A stretch of 64,000 nt of DNA from Fimbriiglobus ruber (GTDB taxonomy: Bacteria; Planctomycetota; Planctomycetia; Gemmatales; Gemmataceae): assembly GCF_002197845.1 (NCBI RefSeq), contig NZ_NIDE01000019.1, forward strand, positions 186,001 to 250,000, in the 5' to 3' direction. A model generated the notes under the pieces. That model ran no database searches. It saw only the letters and a program-made list of their open reading frames with translations, and was not told where the DNA came from. Below, piece after piece: positions 38,182-62,265 of this stretch (position 1 is the stretch's first letter; each line of letters opens with the position of its first letter). The position numbers and the translations under genes are program-made.

Positions 38182-40911
38182 TTACCGTTCTCGCCTTCCC
38201 TGGGCACGGGGGTTAACCGTGTTCAGCCATTCCATCGGAAGAACAAGCGGCTGACCCGGGGCTATGCCGACGGTTCTCGTCAGGTCGGCCACGCGGACCC
38301 CGGCGGACAGCAGGCTCGCGGCCGTCCCCCCGACGAAGCCCGCCCCGGTGGCGGTGCCCGTCAGAGTCGTGCCCGCCGTGGCGATCGTGCCCGGTACGAG
38401 CAGATCGGGCTTGATTCGCAGGGCGACGTTGGGGCCGACGCCGGTCAGGTTTTCGCCTTTCCCGGTCGTCCCGATCGTGATCGCGGCCGGCGAGTCGCCT
38501 GGAATCCCGACGCCCGCGTTCGGCGACGAGAAGGTCGCGAACCGCAGCCGCCCTTTCGATGCCGAGGGGTCGTCGGACGAATCGAGGGAGAGCCGCGGGT
38601 AAAGTTCCATCTTTTGCCGCATGTGCGGCAGTTGGTATTCGTACCCGGTCTTCCCTTCCACGCGGACCGCATAGACCCCGTCGGCCGGCAGCATGACTTC
38701 AAGCGACTGCTCGTATGTACACGACCCGAACGTGCGCATTAGCCGGACCGGTATTCCGGTCGACCGGCCGACCTCCGCGAACTCGTCCGACGCGACGACT
38801 TTGCCTTCCGGGTCGAGCTGGCGGAGCAACACGAGATCGAGTGGGAAGACCGGCTCGCGGGGCAGGTGCCCATCCGGGTCTTGCGGCTCGCGCCACTGGA
38901 CGGTGAGCCGGAATTTCGACCCCGCGGGGGCCGCCGTTGCGGGCGTCCCGTCGGCCGCGGTGAATGACAGGAAATTCAATTCACGGGTCCACCGCCCGGC
39001 GGGCAGGGGAGTCGTGGGTGGGGCGAAGGCCATCACCCCGTCGCCTTCCGGATCGAGGTAAGCCCCCGCCCAGACCTGGCCGACTGCGGTACTCGCCGCC
39101 TGGACCCAGACGGGGACCGGCGGTAGCTTGTACGCCCGTAGCGCGGATTGAACGGCTTTGCTCGTGAACTTGTCGTCCAAAAGCCGGCTCAGTTCGCTCA
39201 GGCCGTCTTGCGGGAAGCCGGCGTCCCAGACGAGCGTATTCACGACCACGCCCGCCCCGCGCAAACTCTCCAGGCCGTATTTGATGCGGGCGAAGCGCTC
39301 GACGGTGTTTTTGAACTGGGCTTCGTCCGCGTTCAGTTGGTTAAAAGCCGCGACGGCTGCGGCCCGCCGGGCCGTCTCCTTCTCCTCGTCGCGCAAGGTC
39401 GCGAAGGCCGCCCGGTACTCCTGCGTGACGACCGTCCGGCGGTTTTCCAGCACGTTCCCGCGGAGGATCAGTTCGAGGGACCGGGATTGCAGAGCTTCGG
39501 AGGAGTTCGGGTCGCCGGTGACCGCGCGGGCGACGGTCATCAGTTGGTGGAACGCCGTGGGCGACACCCGGATCAAGACAAGATCTGCCCGGGGGGCGGC
39601 TGCCACCGCCGCGAGCGCGGCGGCCGTCCCGGTGCCCACGCGGTCGGCCGCGACCGGCGCGGGAACGAGTTCGGGATTCAATTCGGCCGTCAGGTCGAGG
39701 AAGCGGGTTGTCGCCGGGAGTTGTTGCCCGACGAGTGCGTCGAGGCCGGGAAACTCCGTCGCCAGCACCACGACGCGGACACCTTCGCCGGTGTAATTCA
39801 TGCCATGAAGGTTCGCCACGCGGCTCGTCTTGACGAGGTCCGCGGGATTCACGGCCGTCGCGCCGGCCGCGGCCGGGCGAGCCGTTTCGATCCCCGCGCG
39901 GGTGAGCCGGATCGTGCGAACCTCGGCGAGGGTCGCCAGTCGTTCGAGTTCCGACGCCTTGGCGACCCGGACCGTGACCACCGCGCCGACGAGTCCCTCG
40001 ACCGTCAAGCCATCGGCGCCCTGGCGAATGTTGTTCCTGACGGTCTGCCAGGTCAGCGCCGAAGTCGGATTGTTTTCCAGGATCACGTCTGCCCGAAGTT
40101 CTTTCTCCCGGGCTGCCGGGTCGGCGAGAACGGACCGCAGGTCGGTGGTCAATTTGAATAGTGCGGGGCTCGCCGCGGCTGCATCGCCGGGAGGCGCGGC
40201 CGGGGGCGCCGCGGCCGCGGCGGCCGGCGCGGGGAGATCGGGCAAAACTTCCACGAATCGCACGGGAAGGACGTCGCGGAACGGCGACGGGAGATAATCC
40301 GTGGGCACGGCCGTCAGGAACCACCCGGCGGGCTGGAAGCGGAGGTCGCGCAGCAAGCGGAACAGGTTTCCCGTCGGCAGAGCGCCGCGAACGAGGGTGA
40401 ACCCGGCGGAGTCATACGCGATCGCTTCCCGGAACCCCAGGAAGCCCAGGTGTCGAACCACCTGTTCGTGCATGACGCGCTGTTCCTTCGGGTGAAAACC
40501 CGTCGCGATGCCGAGCCGGACCTGCACGGGCTTGTTCGCGTCTTCGCCCAGCATCATCCCGCCCGGGATGAGCAAGACGGTTTGCACCAGCGGGTCGCCG
40601 AGTATTTTGAGGCCGTTTGCCGCCGGGATGGTGCCGGACAGAAATTCGGCCGCCGGGTCGAATGCGTCGAGGTCCGAGTCCTCGCGTGGGGTGAGCGCGA
40701 ATCCGAGCTTATCCAGGTACGCGGATAACGCCCGGAACTGGCGGACACGTCCGTCTTGGTCGGCCCGGATGCGGTAGCGAATGTGGGCGTCGTATTTTTC
40801 CGGTTTGGGCGGGTAAATCACCTGGGCAGCCGCCGGGCGCGCGGCGGCGAGTGACAATACGACGGCAAACAACAGCCCGGCGCCGGACAGACCGGTTCGG
40901 GAGCGGGTCAT
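38182..40911 (-). CDS. Large secreted subtilase-fold protein lacking catalytic residues
   Basis: 909 residues with a signal peptide (GLLFAVVLSLAAARPAAAQ). After an N-terminal region and a Pro/Ala linker, the order of blocks looks like an S8 peptidase. TGEGVRVVVLATEFPG sits where the catalytic Asp block belongs, DRVGTGTAAALAAVA where the His block belongs, and TLTGTATGAGFVGG in the position of GTS-xxxP-HVxG. The expected Asp, His and Ser are replaced (A384, no His near 425-427, A854). A coiled insert around residues 470-560 and a beta-rich C-terminus (VYAVRVEGKTGYEYQLP) follow. It is probably a structural or binding relative of subtilases; the assignment is my reading of weak motifs. Confidence 0.72.
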   Translation of the reverse strand: MTRSRTGLSGAGLLFAVVLSLAAARPAAAQVIYPPKPEKYDAHIRYRIRADQDGRVRQFRALSAYLDKLGFALTPREDSDLDAFDPAAEFLSGTIPAANGLKILGDPLVQTVLLIPGGMMLGEDANKPVQVRLGIATGFHPKEQRVMHEQVVRHLGFLGFREAIAYDSAGFTLVRGALPTGNLFRLLRDLRFQPAGWFLTAVPTDYLPSPFRDVLPVRFVEVLPDLPAPAAAAAAPPAAPPGDAAAASPALFKLTTDLRSVLADPAAREKELRADVILENNPTSALTWQTVRNNIRQGADGLTVEGLVGAVVTVRVAKASELERLATLAEVRTIRLTRAGIETARPAAAGATAVNPADLVKTSRVANLHGMNYTGEGVRVVVLATEFPGLDALVGQQLPATTRFLDLTAELNPELVPAPVAADRVGTGTAAALAAVAAAPRADLVLIRVSPTAFHQLMTVARAVTGDPNSSEALQSRSLELILRGNVLENRRTVVTQEYRAAFATLRDEEKETARRAAAVAAFNQLNADEAQFKNTVERFARIKYGLESLRGAGVVVNTLVWDAGFPQDGLSELSRLLDDKFTSKAVQSALRAYKLPPVPVWVQAASTAVGQVWAGAYLDPEGDGVMAFAPPTTPLPAGRWTRELNFLSFTAADGTPATAAPAGSKFRLTVQWREPQDPDGHLPREPVFPLDLVLLRQLDPEGKVVASDEFAEVGRSTGIPVRLMRTFGSCTYEQSLEVMLPADGVYAVRVEGKTGYEYQLPHMRQKMELYPRLSLDSSDDPSASKGRLRFATFSSPNAGVGIPGDSPAAITIGTTGKGENLTGVGPNVALRIKPDLLVPGTIATAGTTLTGTATGAGFVGGTAASLLSAGVRVADLTRTVGIAPGQPLVLPMEWLNTVNPRAQGRRER

Positions 40912-56892: not shown

Positions 56893-59800
56893 ATGGCGAC
56901 GGTTCTCACAACTCCCGCGACCGCCAGGCCGAAATTCGATTCTCAGGTTGAACAGGAACTCGGCAAGGCGGCCTCCCGAATCCGGCTCAACGACGTGCTG
57001 ACCGGGGCCCTGTCCCTCGCCGTCCTGACGCTCGGGTACGTGACCCTCGCCGTCATCTTCGACAGGTGGCTCGACTTGCCCGGCTGGCTTCGTCAGACGG
57101 GGCTCTTTGCACTGCTGGCGACACTCTTTGCGGTCGGGTACGTCCTGATCGTCCGCCCGGTCCGGCGAACGGTCAACCCGCGGTTCGCGGCCCGGTTGGT
57201 CGAAGCGACGATCCCGGACGCGAAAAACGCCCTCATCAACTGGGTCGACCTGAAAGATACCTCGCTCTCGGACGGCGTCCGTGCAGCGGTCGGCGCGCGG
57301 GCCGCGCGGGGCGTGGGCGACGCCGACCTCCACAAGGCGACCGAAGCCCGCCGAATTCTGTGGCTCGGAGCGATGGTAGGGTTACTGTTGGCGACTTTGG
57401 CCGCACTGTTCGTCTTCTTCAAACCGGCCCCGTTCCTCTCGCTCGTCGGGCGGACGTTTAATCCTTTCAGCTCGACGCGCATCGCGACCCGGACCGAGAT
57501 CACGATCAAGGAGCCGGAAGGCGGCAACGCGATCGTGACCACCGGCGACCCGCTCACGATCGCCGTCTACATCGGCGGGAGCGTCCCGGACCCGACGAGT
57601 TCCGATCGCGTGCGACTCATCGTCCGCCACGACCCCGAGTCGGCCGACTTCGACGAGTTTCCCCTGGAACAAGCCGGCGCGGCCCGCGAGTGGGTCGCCC
57701 GCGTGCCGCAGAGCGTGATCCAAAACGGGTTCTGGTATAAGGTCGCGGCCAACGACGCGATGACGGCCGAATACCGCGTCGAAGTGCGGTCGCGGTCGCT
57801 GTTCAAGGAGTTTGAAGTCCGCTACGAATACCCCGAATATACGCGGATGAAGCCCGAGACGGGCCGCGAACCGCGGCTCGAAGGCTACCGCGGCACGCGG
57901 GTCACACTCATAACCAAAACCAACCGACAAGTGCGCCGTGGCTGGCTCCAGCTCGAAGGGCAGTCGACACCGATTCCGGGCGAAGTGGTCGGCGAAAGAA
58001 AAGACGCCCTTCAATTCCGGTTGGTGCTGGAAGAGAACACCTCGTACCGCCTCGGATTCACTTCACTCGACGGCGAAACGAGCGAGCCCACGCCTCCGTA
58101 CCCCGTTCGCGTACTCGTTGACCAGGCACCGACGGTTACGATCGCCGAGCCGACCCAGGACGAAATCGCACTGCCGACGAACAGCACTTTGAAGATCGAC
58201 GGGGCAGTCGGCGACGATTTCGGCATCGCGTCCGTGGTGCTGAAAATGGAAGTGATCGAGGGCACCACGCGGACAACCGTGGCCGCGAAACCGTACCGCG
58301 ACGGCAAGCCACTTCGCCGCGAGTCCGACGGGTCGTACCCGATGTCCTTGGAATACAAGGATTCGGTTTCGCTGGTCGGACTCAAGCAACCGGACGGCAA
58401 GCCGGTCGTCCTCGAACCGCGGGCCGCGATCGAATACTGGCTGGAAGCGACCGACAACTGCGCGCCGAAGGCGAACGTGGGCAAGTCGAAGGTCAAGCGC
58501 GTCGTTCTCCGCGAGCCAGTCGTGGAGAAGGAACAGCAGGCCCAGATTCAGAAGGACCAGCAGGAACGCAAGGCGAACGAAAAGCGCCACCAACAACAGC
58601 AGGACAAACAGCTTCAGAACGAGAAGCGTGATCCCAAGCAGCTCCACCCGGACCAAAAAGCCGACCAGCCCAAGGATGGACAACAGGGCGACGAACCGGG
58701 CGCGGCCGGAGAGAAAGGCACGCAGGGGGCAAGTTCCGGCCAGCAGCAGGGCGGAGGCCAAGAGAAGTCGCCGATGGGTGGGGGCCAGGAGAGACAACCC
58801 GGTGGACCGGACCAACCGCCGATGGGTGGAGGTCAGGAGAATCAACCCGGTGGGGCCGCGAAGCCGCCGATGGCTGGTGGGAGCCAGGAGAATCAACCCG
58901 GCGGGGCCGCGAAGCCGCCGATGACGGGCGGTCAAGAAAAGCCGCCGATGGCTGGGGGATCAGAGAAGCCGCCAATGGCCGGCGGACCGGATCAACCTCC
59001 GATGCCGAAACAGCCCAACCCGTCTAACGGCAACGACCCTGCCGCAAAACCGGATACGACACCGAAGCCGGAGACCGGGGCTGAAAATCCGGGCGCCGCG
59101 GGTTCGCCCATGAAAACCGATCCGGGCACGAAACAGAAGGACGAGCAGGAAGCGAAGAAGGTCAACGAGGCGATCAAAGAGCAACAACGAAAAGATCGCC
59201 AGCCCGGCGAAACGCGGGGCCAGAATACGGACGGTGACAAGAACCCCGACAACGTGCCCGCCCAGCCCAAGAAGGGCCCGCAGGAGTCGACCGCGCCCAA
59301 GGCGCCCGGCGAATCGCCCGACAGTGCGAAGCCCAAGCCGATGCCCGGTCAGGAAGGCGCCGATCCTACGAATCCCGACCAGACCCCGGGTGCGAGCAAG
59401 CCCGAAGGCAAGCCGATGCCGTCCGAGTCCGGCGGCACTGGCCAGCCGAAACCGGAAGCCGGCGGGTCAGGTAAGCCCAACGAGGGGCAACAGAACTCTG
59501 ACCAAAAGGGCCGTGAAAAGCCCGCGCCGGACGACCCCGACCGGCAACTTGCCCGCGAATTCGGCGACAAAAACAGTGGCGGTTCGGCTCCCACGAAAGC
59601 GGATATGGAAGTCCAGAGGTTGGCACGCAAGGCGGAGAACGAACTCGCGTCCGAAAATCCCGAAGTTCGGGAGAAAGCCGAGAAGGACTTCGAGGCCACT
59701 CTATCCAAGAAGGACCGCGAACAACTAAAACGGGCCGCCCAGGACGCTAAGTCCGGCGATGCCCAGAAGAAGCAACAGGCGAAAAAGGACATCGACGAAC

Positions 59801-62265
59801 TCGCCAAGAAGGCGTCGAAAAACGAGGAGTGGAACAAAAAGGCCCAGGATCTGAATTCACCCGACCAGGAAAAGGCGGACGCCGCCCGACGCGATTTCGA
59901 CAAGACGATCGGTCAGGACGAGCGCAAGGAACTGGAAAAAGACCAGAAGAATGCCCAGTCGGGCAACGGTGATCCGGACGCGAAGGAACGCGCGCAAGAA
60001 AAGGTGCAACGAGCCGCGAACAACGCGGGCAATCCTTCCGGCCAATCGGGCGGTGAGAAGAACCAGCCGACCAAGGAAGAAATCGACGAACTCGTCAAGA
60101 AGGCCAAGGATTTAAATTCCAACGACCCCGAAAAACGGGCCGCCGCGGAAAAGGCTTTAGACGAGAAAATCGGGAGCGACAACCGCAAGCAGTTGCAGAA
60201 AGACATGAAGTCCGGTGGCTCCGACGAGCAAGATTCCGCGAGCCAGCGGGCCGAGCAGACCACCAAGGATGCCGCGAAGCAACAGAAGGGCGGGGGTGGC
60301 GAGCCGACCAAGGAAGACATCGAGAAGGCCAAGCAACTAGCCCAAGATCTGAACTCGTCGGACAAGGACAAGCGAGCCGCTGCCGAGGAACAGCTCGACA
60401 AGGCAATCGGACAGGAGAAACGCAAAGAACTGCAGCAAGACATTAAGCAGGAGCAAGCCCGGCAGCGCATCGAGCAGGGTGCCAAGGACGCCGCGAAGCA
60501 GCAGAACGGCGGCGGGGGTGAGCCGAGCAAGGAAGACATGGAGAAGGCCAAGCAACTGGCCCAGGATTTGAATTCTTCCGACAAGGACAAGAAGGCCGCC
60601 GCGGAGGAGAAGTTCGACAAGGCGGTTGGGCAGGAGAAGCGCAAACAACTGCAACAGGACATGAAGGACGCCCAATCCGGCGACCCCGCGAAGCAAGAGC
60701 AGGCTCGGCAACGCATTGAGCAGGGCGCCAAGGACGCCGCGAAGCAGCAGAACGGCGGCGGGGGTGGCGAACCTTCGAAGGAAGACATCGAGAAGGCCAA
60801 GCAACTGGCCCAGGATTTGAACTCGTCGGATAAGGACAAGAAGGCTGCCGCAGAGGAGAAGATCGACAAGGCGATCGGGCAGGAGAAACGCAAACAGTTG
60901 CAACAAGACATGAAGGACGCCCAGTCCGGCGACCCCGCGAAGCAAGACGCCGCCCGCCAGCGGGCCGAGCAGGCCACCAAGGACGCGGCCAAGAATCAGC
61001 GCTCTTCCGGTGAGCCCTCGAAGGAGGACGTCGAGAAAGCCAAGCAAATGGCCGAAGACCTGGCGTCGCCCGACGAGAACAAGCGGAAAAACGCCGAGAA
61101 GGAGTTCGACAAGGCGATCGGGAAGGAAGGTCGCGAGCAAATGCGGAAGGACATCCAAGACAAAAAGTCGAGCGACGCGGCCAAAGAACAAGCGGCTCGC
61201 GAGCAGATCGAGAAAATGGCCAAGGACCAGCAGGCCAAGAACGAACAGGGCGGCGCTCGCCAACAGCAACCATCGCCTGATAAGACGCCCTCGAAGGAAG
61301 ACGTCGCCAAGCGGCTCCAACAGGCCCCTGATCTCGCGTCCGATGACAAGCAAACTCGCGAGAAAGCCGAGCAGGCGCTCGATCAGGATGTCGGCAAGGA
61401 TCGCCGCGAGCAGATGCAAAAGGCCGCCCAGGACAAGAAGAATGCCGGCCAATCCGGCGACATGGCCAAGGAAAAGCAGGCCCAAGACAAGATCGAGCAA
61501 ATGGCGAAGGACGCGCCCAAGGGGCAGGGCGGTGACAAAGGCAAGACGCCGTCCAAGGAAGAACTCGAAAAGCTGGTCCAGGCCGCCAAAGACTTGAACT
61601 CGCCCGATAAAGAGAAGAAGGCCGAGGCCGAGAAGAAGTTCGACGACCTCGTCGGAAAAGAGGCCCGGGAACAGGCTCAGCAGAAAGCCAAGAAGTTGAG
61701 CGAGGATTTGAAGTCGGGCGACCCGGCGAAGCAAAAGGCCGCACAGAAAGAACTGGAGGAACTGGCGAACAATTTGTCCAGCCAGTCCGGTTCCGGTCCC
61801 CAAACCAATAACGGGCGACCCGGTGGCGCGGGCAAGGAAGAAGAAGCGAAACTCCACCAGGACGACCCGAAGAACCGCCTCAAGACGGCCGAACTTCAGC
61901 TCACGGAGTTTGAAAAGAACCGGGAGAACAAGGAGCTACAGAACAAACTCGGCTACACGCCGGAGGATTACGAGCGGTTCCTGCAAGCCCAGCGAAAGCG
62001 AGTTGAGGAGATGCGGGCGGAAGCGGACCAAGCCGCCCTCAACCCCAACGCCAAACCCACCGGCCCGGCGGAGCTGAAGGTGGGGGACGCTTCGGGCGGT
62101 GTGAAAACGACCACGCGGTCCGACGGCACCGGGCTCACGACGGGTGGCTCGGGGCCTGGAATCGCCCCGCCCGGCTACTCGGACCCGCAGAAAAAATTCG
62201 CCGAGGCCGCGTCTCGGTCCGAGAGCCGCAAGGGGCACGACAAGGCGACTGAAGGAAACAAGTAA
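56893..62265 (+). CDS. Giant membrane-anchored DUF4175-like protein with charged helical repeats
   Basis: 1790 residues. Hydrophobic segments lie near 36-56, 68-87 and 155-176. A beta-rich region to ~540 includes EITIKEPEGGNAIVTTGDPL and EFEVRYEYPEYTRMKPETG, as in planctomycete DUF4175 proteins. From ~547 it is Gln/Lys-rich, with a Gly/Pro/Gln block (620-706, repeats of KPPMAGG and QENQPGG). Then come about nine charged helical repeats from 899 to ~1640, spaced 73-91 residues, with consensus (T/S)KEDIEKAKQLAQDLNSSDK. A final coiled stretch has GYTPEDYERFLQAQRKRVEE. It is probably an envelope structural or scaffold protein. The kinase is divergent from it. Confidence 0.85.
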   Translation: MATVLTTPATARPKFDSQVEQELGKAASRIRLNDVLTGALSLAVLTLGYVTLAVIFDRWLDLPGWLRQTGLFALLATLFAVGYVLIVRPVRRTVNPRFAARLVEATIPDAKNALINWVDLKDTSLSDGVRAAVGARAARGVGDADLHKATEARRILWLGAMVGLLLATLAALFVFFKPAPFLSLVGRTFNPFSSTRIATRTEITIKEPEGGNAIVTTGDPLTIAVYIGGSVPDPTSSDRVRLIVRHDPESADFDEFPLEQAGAAREWVARVPQSVIQNGFWYKVAANDAMTAEYRVEVRSRSLFKEFEVRYEYPEYTRMKPETGREPRLEGYRGTRVTLITKTNRQVRRGWLQLEGQSTPIPGEVVGERKDALQFRLVLEENTSYRLGFTSLDGETSEPTPPYPVRVLVDQAPTVTIAEPTQDEIALPTNSTLKIDGAVGDDFGIASVVLKMEVIEGTTRTTVAAKPYRDGKPLRRESDGSYPMSLEYKDSVSLVGLKQPDGKPVVLEPRAAIEYWLEATDNCAPKANVGKSKVKRVVLREPVVEKEQQAQIQKDQQERKANEKRHQQQQDKQLQNEKRDPKQLHPDQKADQPKDGQQGDEPGAAGEKGTQGASSGQQQGGGQEKSPMGGGQERQPGGPDQPPMGGGQENQPGGAAKPPMAGGSQENQPGGAAKPPMTGGQEKPPMAGGSEKPPMAGGPDQPPMPKQPNPSNGNDPAAKPDTTPKPETGAENPGAAGSPMKTDPGTKQKDEQEAKKVNEAIKEQQRKDRQPGETRGQNTDGDKNPDNVPAQPKKGPQESTAPKAPGESPDSAKPKPMPGQEGADPTNPDQTPGASKPEGKPMPSESGGTGQPKPEAGGSGKPNEGQQNSDQKGREKPAPDDPDRQLAREFGDKNSGGSAPTKADMEVQRLARKAENELASENPEVREKAEKDFEATLSKKDREQLKRAAQDAKSGDAQKKQQAKKDIDELAKKASKNEEWNKKAQDLNSPDQEKADAARRDFDKTIGQDERKELEKDQKNAQSGNGDPDAKERAQEKVQRAANNAGNPSGQSGGEKNQPTKEEIDELVKKAKDLNSNDPEKRAAAEKALDEKIGSDNRKQLQKDMKSGGSDEQDSASQRAEQTTKDAAKQQKGGGGEPTKEDIEKAKQLAQDLNSSDKDKRAAAEEQLDKAIGQEKRKELQQDIKQEQARQRIEQGAKDAAKQQNGGGGEPSKEDMEKAKQLAQDLNSSDKDKKAAAEEKFDKAVGQEKRKQLQQDMKDAQSGDPAKQEQARQRIEQGAKDAAKQQNGGGGGEPSKEDIEKAKQLAQDLNSSDKDKKAAAEEKIDKAIGQEKRKQLQQDMKDAQSGDPAKQDAARQRAEQATKDAAKNQRSSGEPSKEDVEKAKQMAEDLASPDENKRKNAEKEFDKAIGKEGREQMRKDIQDKKSSDAAKEQAAREQIEKMAKDQQAKNEQGGARQQQPSPDKTPSKEDVAKRLQQAPDLASDDKQTREKAEQALDQDVGKDRREQMQKAAQDKKNAGQSGDMAKEKQAQDKIEQMAKDAPKGQGGDKGKTPSKEELEKLVQAAKDLNSPDKEKKAEAEKKFDDLVGKEAREQAQQKAKKLSEDLKSGDPAKQKAAQKELEELANNLSSQSGSGPQTNNGRPGGAGKEEEAKLHQDDPKNRLKTAELQLTEFEKNRENKELQNKLGYTPEDYERFLQAQRKRVEEMRAEADQAALNPNAKPTGPAELKVGDASGGVKTTTRSDGTGLTTGGSGPGIAPPGYSDPQKKFAEAASRSESRKGHDKATEGNK
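59587..61800 (+). repeat. Tandem ~80-residue charged repeats inside the giant protein
   Basis: Unit starts fall near residues 899, 977, 1058, 1137, 1210, 1293, 1374, 1465 and 1552. The central units (1137-1373) are nearly identical at protein and DNA level, with AAGCAACTGGCCCAGGATTTGAA-type segments repeated almost exactly (shown here in shortened form AAGCAACTGGCCCAGGAT). The pattern suggests recent unit duplication. Confidence 0.85.

Follow-up and report, generated by a model that had tools for sequence, protein, structure and literature searches.

The window (the whole 64-kb stretch of DNA analyzed here) carries on its minus strand a gene for a 909-aa protein whose descent from an S8 (subtilisin-type) protease is supported by profile comparisons, and in which the positions of the catalytic Asp and His, the oxyanion Asn and the catalytic Ser are all occupied by other residues. 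The protein is probably an old, constrained pseudoprotease doing a non-cutting job. We consider it fairly likely that it is an exported protein that has lost catalysis and now serves, stably folded, as a binding or scaffold protein in the periplasm or at the cell surface; binding is the usual guess for conserved proteins with lost catalysis. It would be an S8-descended pseudoprotease with an architecture of its own, in a family spread through nearly the whole order Gemmatales. No report of a planctomycete S8 pseudoprotease was found in the open-licence PMC literature, and the published bacterial S8 pseudoproteases in the literature searched were the clostridial Csp spore proteins (PMC6636752). 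The analysis also highlights a strongly conserved, apparently exported and apparently unstudied protein in Gemmatales.

The preliminary description had claimed an open reading frame of 909 residues, and this frame was found; it begins with ATG and lies on the minus strand (Table 1). The description had also read Ala at the Asp position (A384), no His near residues 425-427 and Ala at the Ser position (A854). These residues were confirmed, residue 427 being Thr, and a fourth altered site was found in the oxyanion Asn column, so that neither the Asp/His/Ser set nor the Asn155 of active S8 proteases is present. The domain borders were drawn by eye. Export is suggested by a signal peptide, which was likewise read by eye and not with a signal-peptide program. 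The strand-rich insert, which has conserved residues at W614, G616, D620, W673 and E675, may form a beta-sandwich, as the strands of the model suggest. No second copy of the protein was found in its own genome at E <= 0.001.

Table 1. Coordinates of the pseudoprotease gene, its parts and its divergent neighbor in the window.
Feature	Position	Strand	Basis or comment
S8-fold pseudoprotease gene	38182..40911	-	909 aa, ATG start; corrected profile count places the family in 90/102 Gemmatales genomes
Putative Sec-type signal peptide, residues 1-29, ending AAA before Q30	40825..40911	-	By-eye reading of the sequence
Three predicted ferredoxin-like (prodomain-like) alpha/beta units, residues ~36-345	39877..40806	-	AlphaFold pLDDT 61.8, repeated strand-helix-strand
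S8 N-terminal block, residues 355-455, formerly with Asp32 and His64	39547..39849	-	Aligns with subtilisin 9-86
Asp32 position, Ala384	39760..39762	-	Residue reading and profile alignment
His64 position, Thr427	39631..39633	-	Residue reading and profile alignment
Helical arm within the S8 core, residues 456-548	39268..39546	-	Low-confidence model showing two long helices
S8 middle block with the oxyanion position, residues 549-612	39076..39267	-	Alignment
Oxyanion Asn155 position, Thr608	39088..39090	-	Alignment
Strand-rich insert, residues 613-790	38542..39075	-	Strands in a low-confidence model; conserved columns
S8 C-terminal block, residues 798-875	38287..38520	-	Aligns with subtilisin chain positions 152-228
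Ser221 position, Ala854	38350..38352	-	Residue reading and profile alignment
Short-chain dehydrogenase, divergent, 234 bp from the pseudoprotease start codon	41145..41927	+	Pfam adh_short 6e-52

The S8 origin of the fold was examined using profile searches. A search against the S8 family had been proposed in the preliminary description as a check of the fold, and its outcome was divided: the lack of an S8 hit, named there as a refutation, formally applies to the single 909-aa sequence at the Pfam cut-off, but it does not apply to the family. Peptidase_S8 (PF00082) matched the sequence alone with an E of 0.14 and 11.8 bits (cut-off 21.8) over residues 798-866, NCBIfam gave nothing, and phmmer against the PDB returned no subtilisin. 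The profile of 54 family members matched 127 PDB sequences at E up to 1; the best 60 of these 127 were all subtilase-type chains aligned in two collinear blocks, and subtilisin BPN' was the top match (3.7e-8). The profile of the 14 triad-less members of the protein's own clade (the dead clade) also placed subtilisin BPN' first (E 5.8e-5, both blocks), and its alignment paired subtilisin residues 32, 64 and 221 with A384, T427 and A854, respectively. The aligned chain 1spb carries Asn at 32 and Ala at 221, and chain 1dui, with Asp and Ser at these two positions, matched the same profile at 8.7e-5. Three family profiles in all were compared with the PDB, and subtilisins were at the top of the matches of each. 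The block order claimed from the sequence was thus borne out, both core blocks being collinear with subtilisin in the family and dead-clade profiles. Likeness to subtilisin BPN' and other S8 proteases lies in these collinear N- and C-terminal blocks; unlike them, the 909-aa protein lacks the triad and the oxyanion Asn and has long inserts and an N-terminal extension.

The relatives were also searched. Peptidase_S8 was matched at E up to 1 by 19 of the 54 aligned members (best 1.2e-9). When nine members were scanned singly, six were above the Pfam cut-off, five with an intact triad together with L024, which has no Ser, and the intact-triad members L014, L029 and L030 were below it. A profile built from a sister family with all its catalytic residues in place matched the 909-aa protein at 2.3e-7 (27.7 bits) in a search of open reading frames from 68 loci and the window. 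When profiles were compared with those of S8 proteases from related genomes, the matches were weak: the family gave 72.8%, in the C-terminal block only, and the dead clade 17.8%, partly misaligned; a profile of the ordinary S8 proteases from related genomes matched no family frame at E <= 1e-3. The AlphaFold model of the core (residues 350-909, from two sequences, the 909-aa protein and L031) had a pLDDT of only 40.9, and the S8 ancestry therefore rests on profile homology. In the model of the N-terminal part, the units are repeated strand-helix-strand elements, which we take to be ferredoxin-like in fold. All Foldseek matches of these units were weak (best E 4.9e-3, none at E <= 0.001), among them one to the prodomain-sized CspB chain 4i0w_A (E 0.041, Foldseek probability 0.99), and no Pfam prodomain was found in the protein up to E 10.

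The distribution of the family was determined with the family profile. It matched 91 of the 102 Gemmatales genomes, and 70 of the 71 of good quality, with E values of 1e-10 or lower; since the sole match in genome G040 is a sister-family gene, both counts were lowered by one, to 90 of 102 and 69 of 71. A single copy is usual, and G030 has two. The closest relative of the window gene is 51% identical. The same-genus genome G002 carries a protein identical to that of L031. In a search with the single protein, the family was not found in any of 31 genomes outside Gemmatales. A class-wide draw of 198 genomes, in which scoring was limited to each genome's 4 best candidates and 128 non-matching genomes were without individual listing, gave 50 genomes with a match, all of them the genome itself or genomes of the same family or the same order.

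The count of catalytic residues covers 81 aligned members, which come from 80 genomes (54 members in the first set and 27 added); the fragments L010, L032, L040 and L050 and duplicate loci were dropped, and further partial profile matches lie outside this census. Asp was kept in 26 members, His in 19, Asn155 in 14 and Ser in 11. Asp, His and Ser were all kept in 11 members, Asp and His in 6, Asp only in 9 and His only in 2, and none of the three was kept in 53, so Ser was always accompanied by Asp and His. The family thus holds intact relatives, intermediates that have lost Ser alone or both Ser and His, and fully dead forms, a series on which the sequence and the number of steps between enzyme and pseudoenzyme can be tested directly. 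The Ser column was empty in 14 of the 81 members. Most of these 14 proteins stop after the strand-rich insert, which means that the remainder is kept without the Ser-bearing block. All six aligned sequences from the second family in Gemmatales are among the 14 with an empty Ser column. In that family, L041, L044, L046, L049, L052 and L057 have no C-terminal S8 block and end after the strand-rich insert. In L054, also one of the 14, an in-frame stop ends the first frame at about 586 aa.

For residue comparisons the dead clade was enlarged to 31 members, the 14 rows placed on the tree and 17 later rows assigned by genus and residue; the 17 come from genera already in the clade, and L137, from a further such genus, was not included. 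The Ser221 column holds only Gly, Ala, Met, Asp or Ile in these 31 members. The Ser nucleophile that sedolisins (S53) have at the GTS position is absent from this column. Neither Ser nor Cys is invariant anywhere in the 31 sequences, and no conserved Ser or Cys that might serve as a substitute nucleophile was therefore seen.

Weaker matches of the family profile led to a compact sister family of nine genes (L103-L111) with open frames of 433-562 aa. Asp, His, Asn and Ser were complete in all eight members aligned (411-471 aa as aligned; L107 was omitted as very similar to L104), and the three members tested matched Pfam S8 at 2.1e-14 to 8.5e-27. The sister family (for example L105:1792-3024, plus strand) is patchy, being present in 32 of 102 Gemmatales genomes, and the genome of the window gave no match at E <= 1e-60. 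It shares with the family of the 909-aa protein the S8 blocks and, judged by eye, the placement of an insert after the oxyanion block and ahead of the Ser block; in contrast, it is shorter, its aligned members keep the Asp, His, Asn and Ser, and by eye no counterpart of the helical arm was seen.

We used the sister family as root for a tree of 61 rows, from which L054 was omitted and in which 15 of 58 inner branches were drawn open. Intact members were scattered among decayed ones: L021; L026, L029, L030, L035 and L036; L034; and L014, which adjoins the 14-member dead clade with a support of 92. Parsimony, whose changes may be losses or regains, gave 9 changes for Asp, 8 for His and 5 for Ser on the rooted tree and 10, 7 and 4, respectively, on an unrooted tree of 53 rows. 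If residues never return, the losses on the rooted tree number 11 for Asp, 15 for His and 9 for Ser. With an intact root, a two-state model needed no gain for Asp and showed a difference of 0.3 log units for His, and for Ser the reversible model fitted 3.3 log units better than irreversible loss. These results firmly indicate that Asp was lost repeatedly, about 9-11 times on the rooted tree, and the number of Ser losses depends on whether Ser can return. A wider reading is tentative, and we would put it at somewhat less than an even chance: that a protease became a core non-catalytic envelope protein in Gemmatales, with parallel catalytic loss in the near-fixed order Ser, His, Asp and with strong selection throughout. 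If true, the family would amount to a replicated natural experiment on how enzymes turn into pseudoenzymes.

Selection was estimated from pairs with more than 68% identity, using simple Nei-Gojobori counts. The dN/dS ratio was 0.060-0.239 in 14 dead-clade pairs and 0.169 and 0.183 in two intact-triad pairs; no listed pair whose dS is finite reached 0.25, although dS exceeds 1 in some pairs and the window gene is in none of them. These values indicate that the relatives of the 909-aa protein are under purifying selection. Within the dead clade, the His and Asn columns were at the 5th and 18th conservation percentiles, and the Asp and Ser columns, mainly Gly or Ala, were at percentiles 67 and 63. 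Near-invariant columns numbered 22 of 177 in the strand-rich insert, 14 of 100 in the second N-terminal unit, 14 of 101 in the S8 N-terminal block and 9 of 77 in the S8 C-terminal block. The insert has the most such columns, but at a density below that of the second N-terminal unit and the S8 N-terminal block, and conservation does not mark it as the working surface.

The role that we propose joins these observations. Ancestral proteolysis would have been lost when all three triad residues and the oxyanion Asn were replaced, and the fold would have been kept for another job than cutting. A non-cleavage job is proposed because the gene is kept in nearly every Gemmatales genome and its relatives are under purifying selection, with the catalytic residues gone; conservation without catalysis points to a binding or structural role. 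The prodomain-like part should not be self-cleavable because there is no catalytic Ser. In CspC of Clostridioides difficile, the prodomain stays uncut owing to triad substitutions (PMC6636752). For both reasons, the N-terminal units of the 909-aa protein are proposed never to be self-cleaved and to stay docked on the dead cleft. The strand-rich insert and the face of the cleft may then provide the binding surface.

The nearest analogues are C. difficile CspC and CspA, S8 pseudoproteases that act in spore germination. They combine a subtilase fold with lost catalytic residues, an N-terminal prodomain and a beta-rich insert, and the 909-aa protein resembles them in its lost catalytic residues and in its putative subtilase fold, prodomain-like units and strand-rich insert. 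The insert in the subtilase domain of Csp proteins is a jelly roll of about 130 aa (PMC6636752); the similarity in insert placement to the 909-aa protein is suggested by numbering. CspC is stated there to keep Asp105 and to lose two catalytic residues, whereas the 909-aa protein has lost all three and the oxyanion Asn. It also differs from the Csp proteins in having about three putative N-terminal ferredoxin-like units and a putative helical arm, in coming from a different phylum, and in having no active S8 partner gene beside it in the window or the flanks searched. CspB and other germination-protease chains were among the PDB matches of the family profiles, but subtilisins outscored the Csp chains, and no special kinship with Csp is shown.

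Given this likeness, the protein might be a regulatory pseudoprotease, an inhibitor, chaperone or activator of an active S8 protease, as CspC and CspA are with CspB in clostridial spores. In favor of this, the architecture resembles that of Csp proteins in its prodomain-like N-terminus and its strand-rich insert in the subtilase domain, and other S8 genes are present in the window's genome, which gave seven Pfam S8 matches, including two that belong to a single frame. However, two S8 profiles found no other S8 open reading frame at E <= 1e-3, either within the window or beside the 68 loci (flanks of none to about 6 kb, some loci being duplicates), and the intact sister is confined to less than a third of the Gemmatales genomes and unmatched in the window's own. 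A partner gene at a distance is conceivable. We regard a regulatory role of this kind as unlikely, though it is the rival to be taken most seriously. Alternatively, the protein could be an active enzyme with a relocated or substitute catalytic set, such as a sedolisin-like Ser-Glu-Asp set or a Thr nucleophile. Migrated catalytic residues and proteins mistaken for dead have been reported (PMC10211241, PMC12037411), and Asp406 and Thr408 are conserved between the old catalytic positions. Relocated catalysis is nevertheless improbable, given a Ser221 column without Ser in all 31 dead-clade members, the lack of any invariant Ser or Cys, and the members in which the Ser column is empty altogether.

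Two further explanations deny either the ancestry or the function. The motifs might resemble those of S8 proteases by chance, and the sub-threshold Pfam value of the single sequence, the phmmer result, the poor core model and the ordinary S8 profile that matches no member at 1e-3 are all compatible with this. Against it, subtilisins head the PDB matches of three profiles, one of them built from triad-less members only, six of nine singly scanned members pass Pfam S8, and the sister profile ties the protein to clear S8 proteases, which makes chance resemblance very improbable. That the gene is decaying and without function is hardly credible: the catalytic residues are lost and the His column is poorly conserved, but long open frames are kept across Gemmatales and the finite-dS pairs listed show low dN/dS. 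The preferred reading is still that of a stably folded protein with a binding or scaffold role.

We also analyzed the neighboring genes; neighbor families were named on one representative each, and the counts are lower bounds since the flanks are of unequal length. A similar short-chain dehydrogenase lies head-to-head with the family gene in 24 of 53 genomes, including that of the window, when loci with at least 700 bp upstream are considered (5 of 58 with less upstream sequence were dropped), and a promoter region shared between the two genes is possible. Downstream on the same strand, a metallophosphoesterase and a YidC-type (60KD_IMP) insertase were found in 10 of 58 loci (L045, L047, L048, L051, L053-L056, L058 and L059). 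Upstream, a diacylglycerol kinase was found in 4 of the 58 loci and an M20 peptidase in 11. This neighborhood hints at the envelope. An upstream neighbor in some genomes, at first taken for LptD, had no Pfam match and an NCBIfam outer-membrane match far below the cut-off, and that name was dropped. Elsewhere in the window, the frame at 56893-62265 on the plus strand (1790 aa) had no Pfam match at 0.001. The two S8 pieces of one frame in the own genome (L082 and L084) belong to a gene at C19:275614-276315 with a 315-aa frame, which carries AAHN at the oxyanion site, where AAGN is usual.
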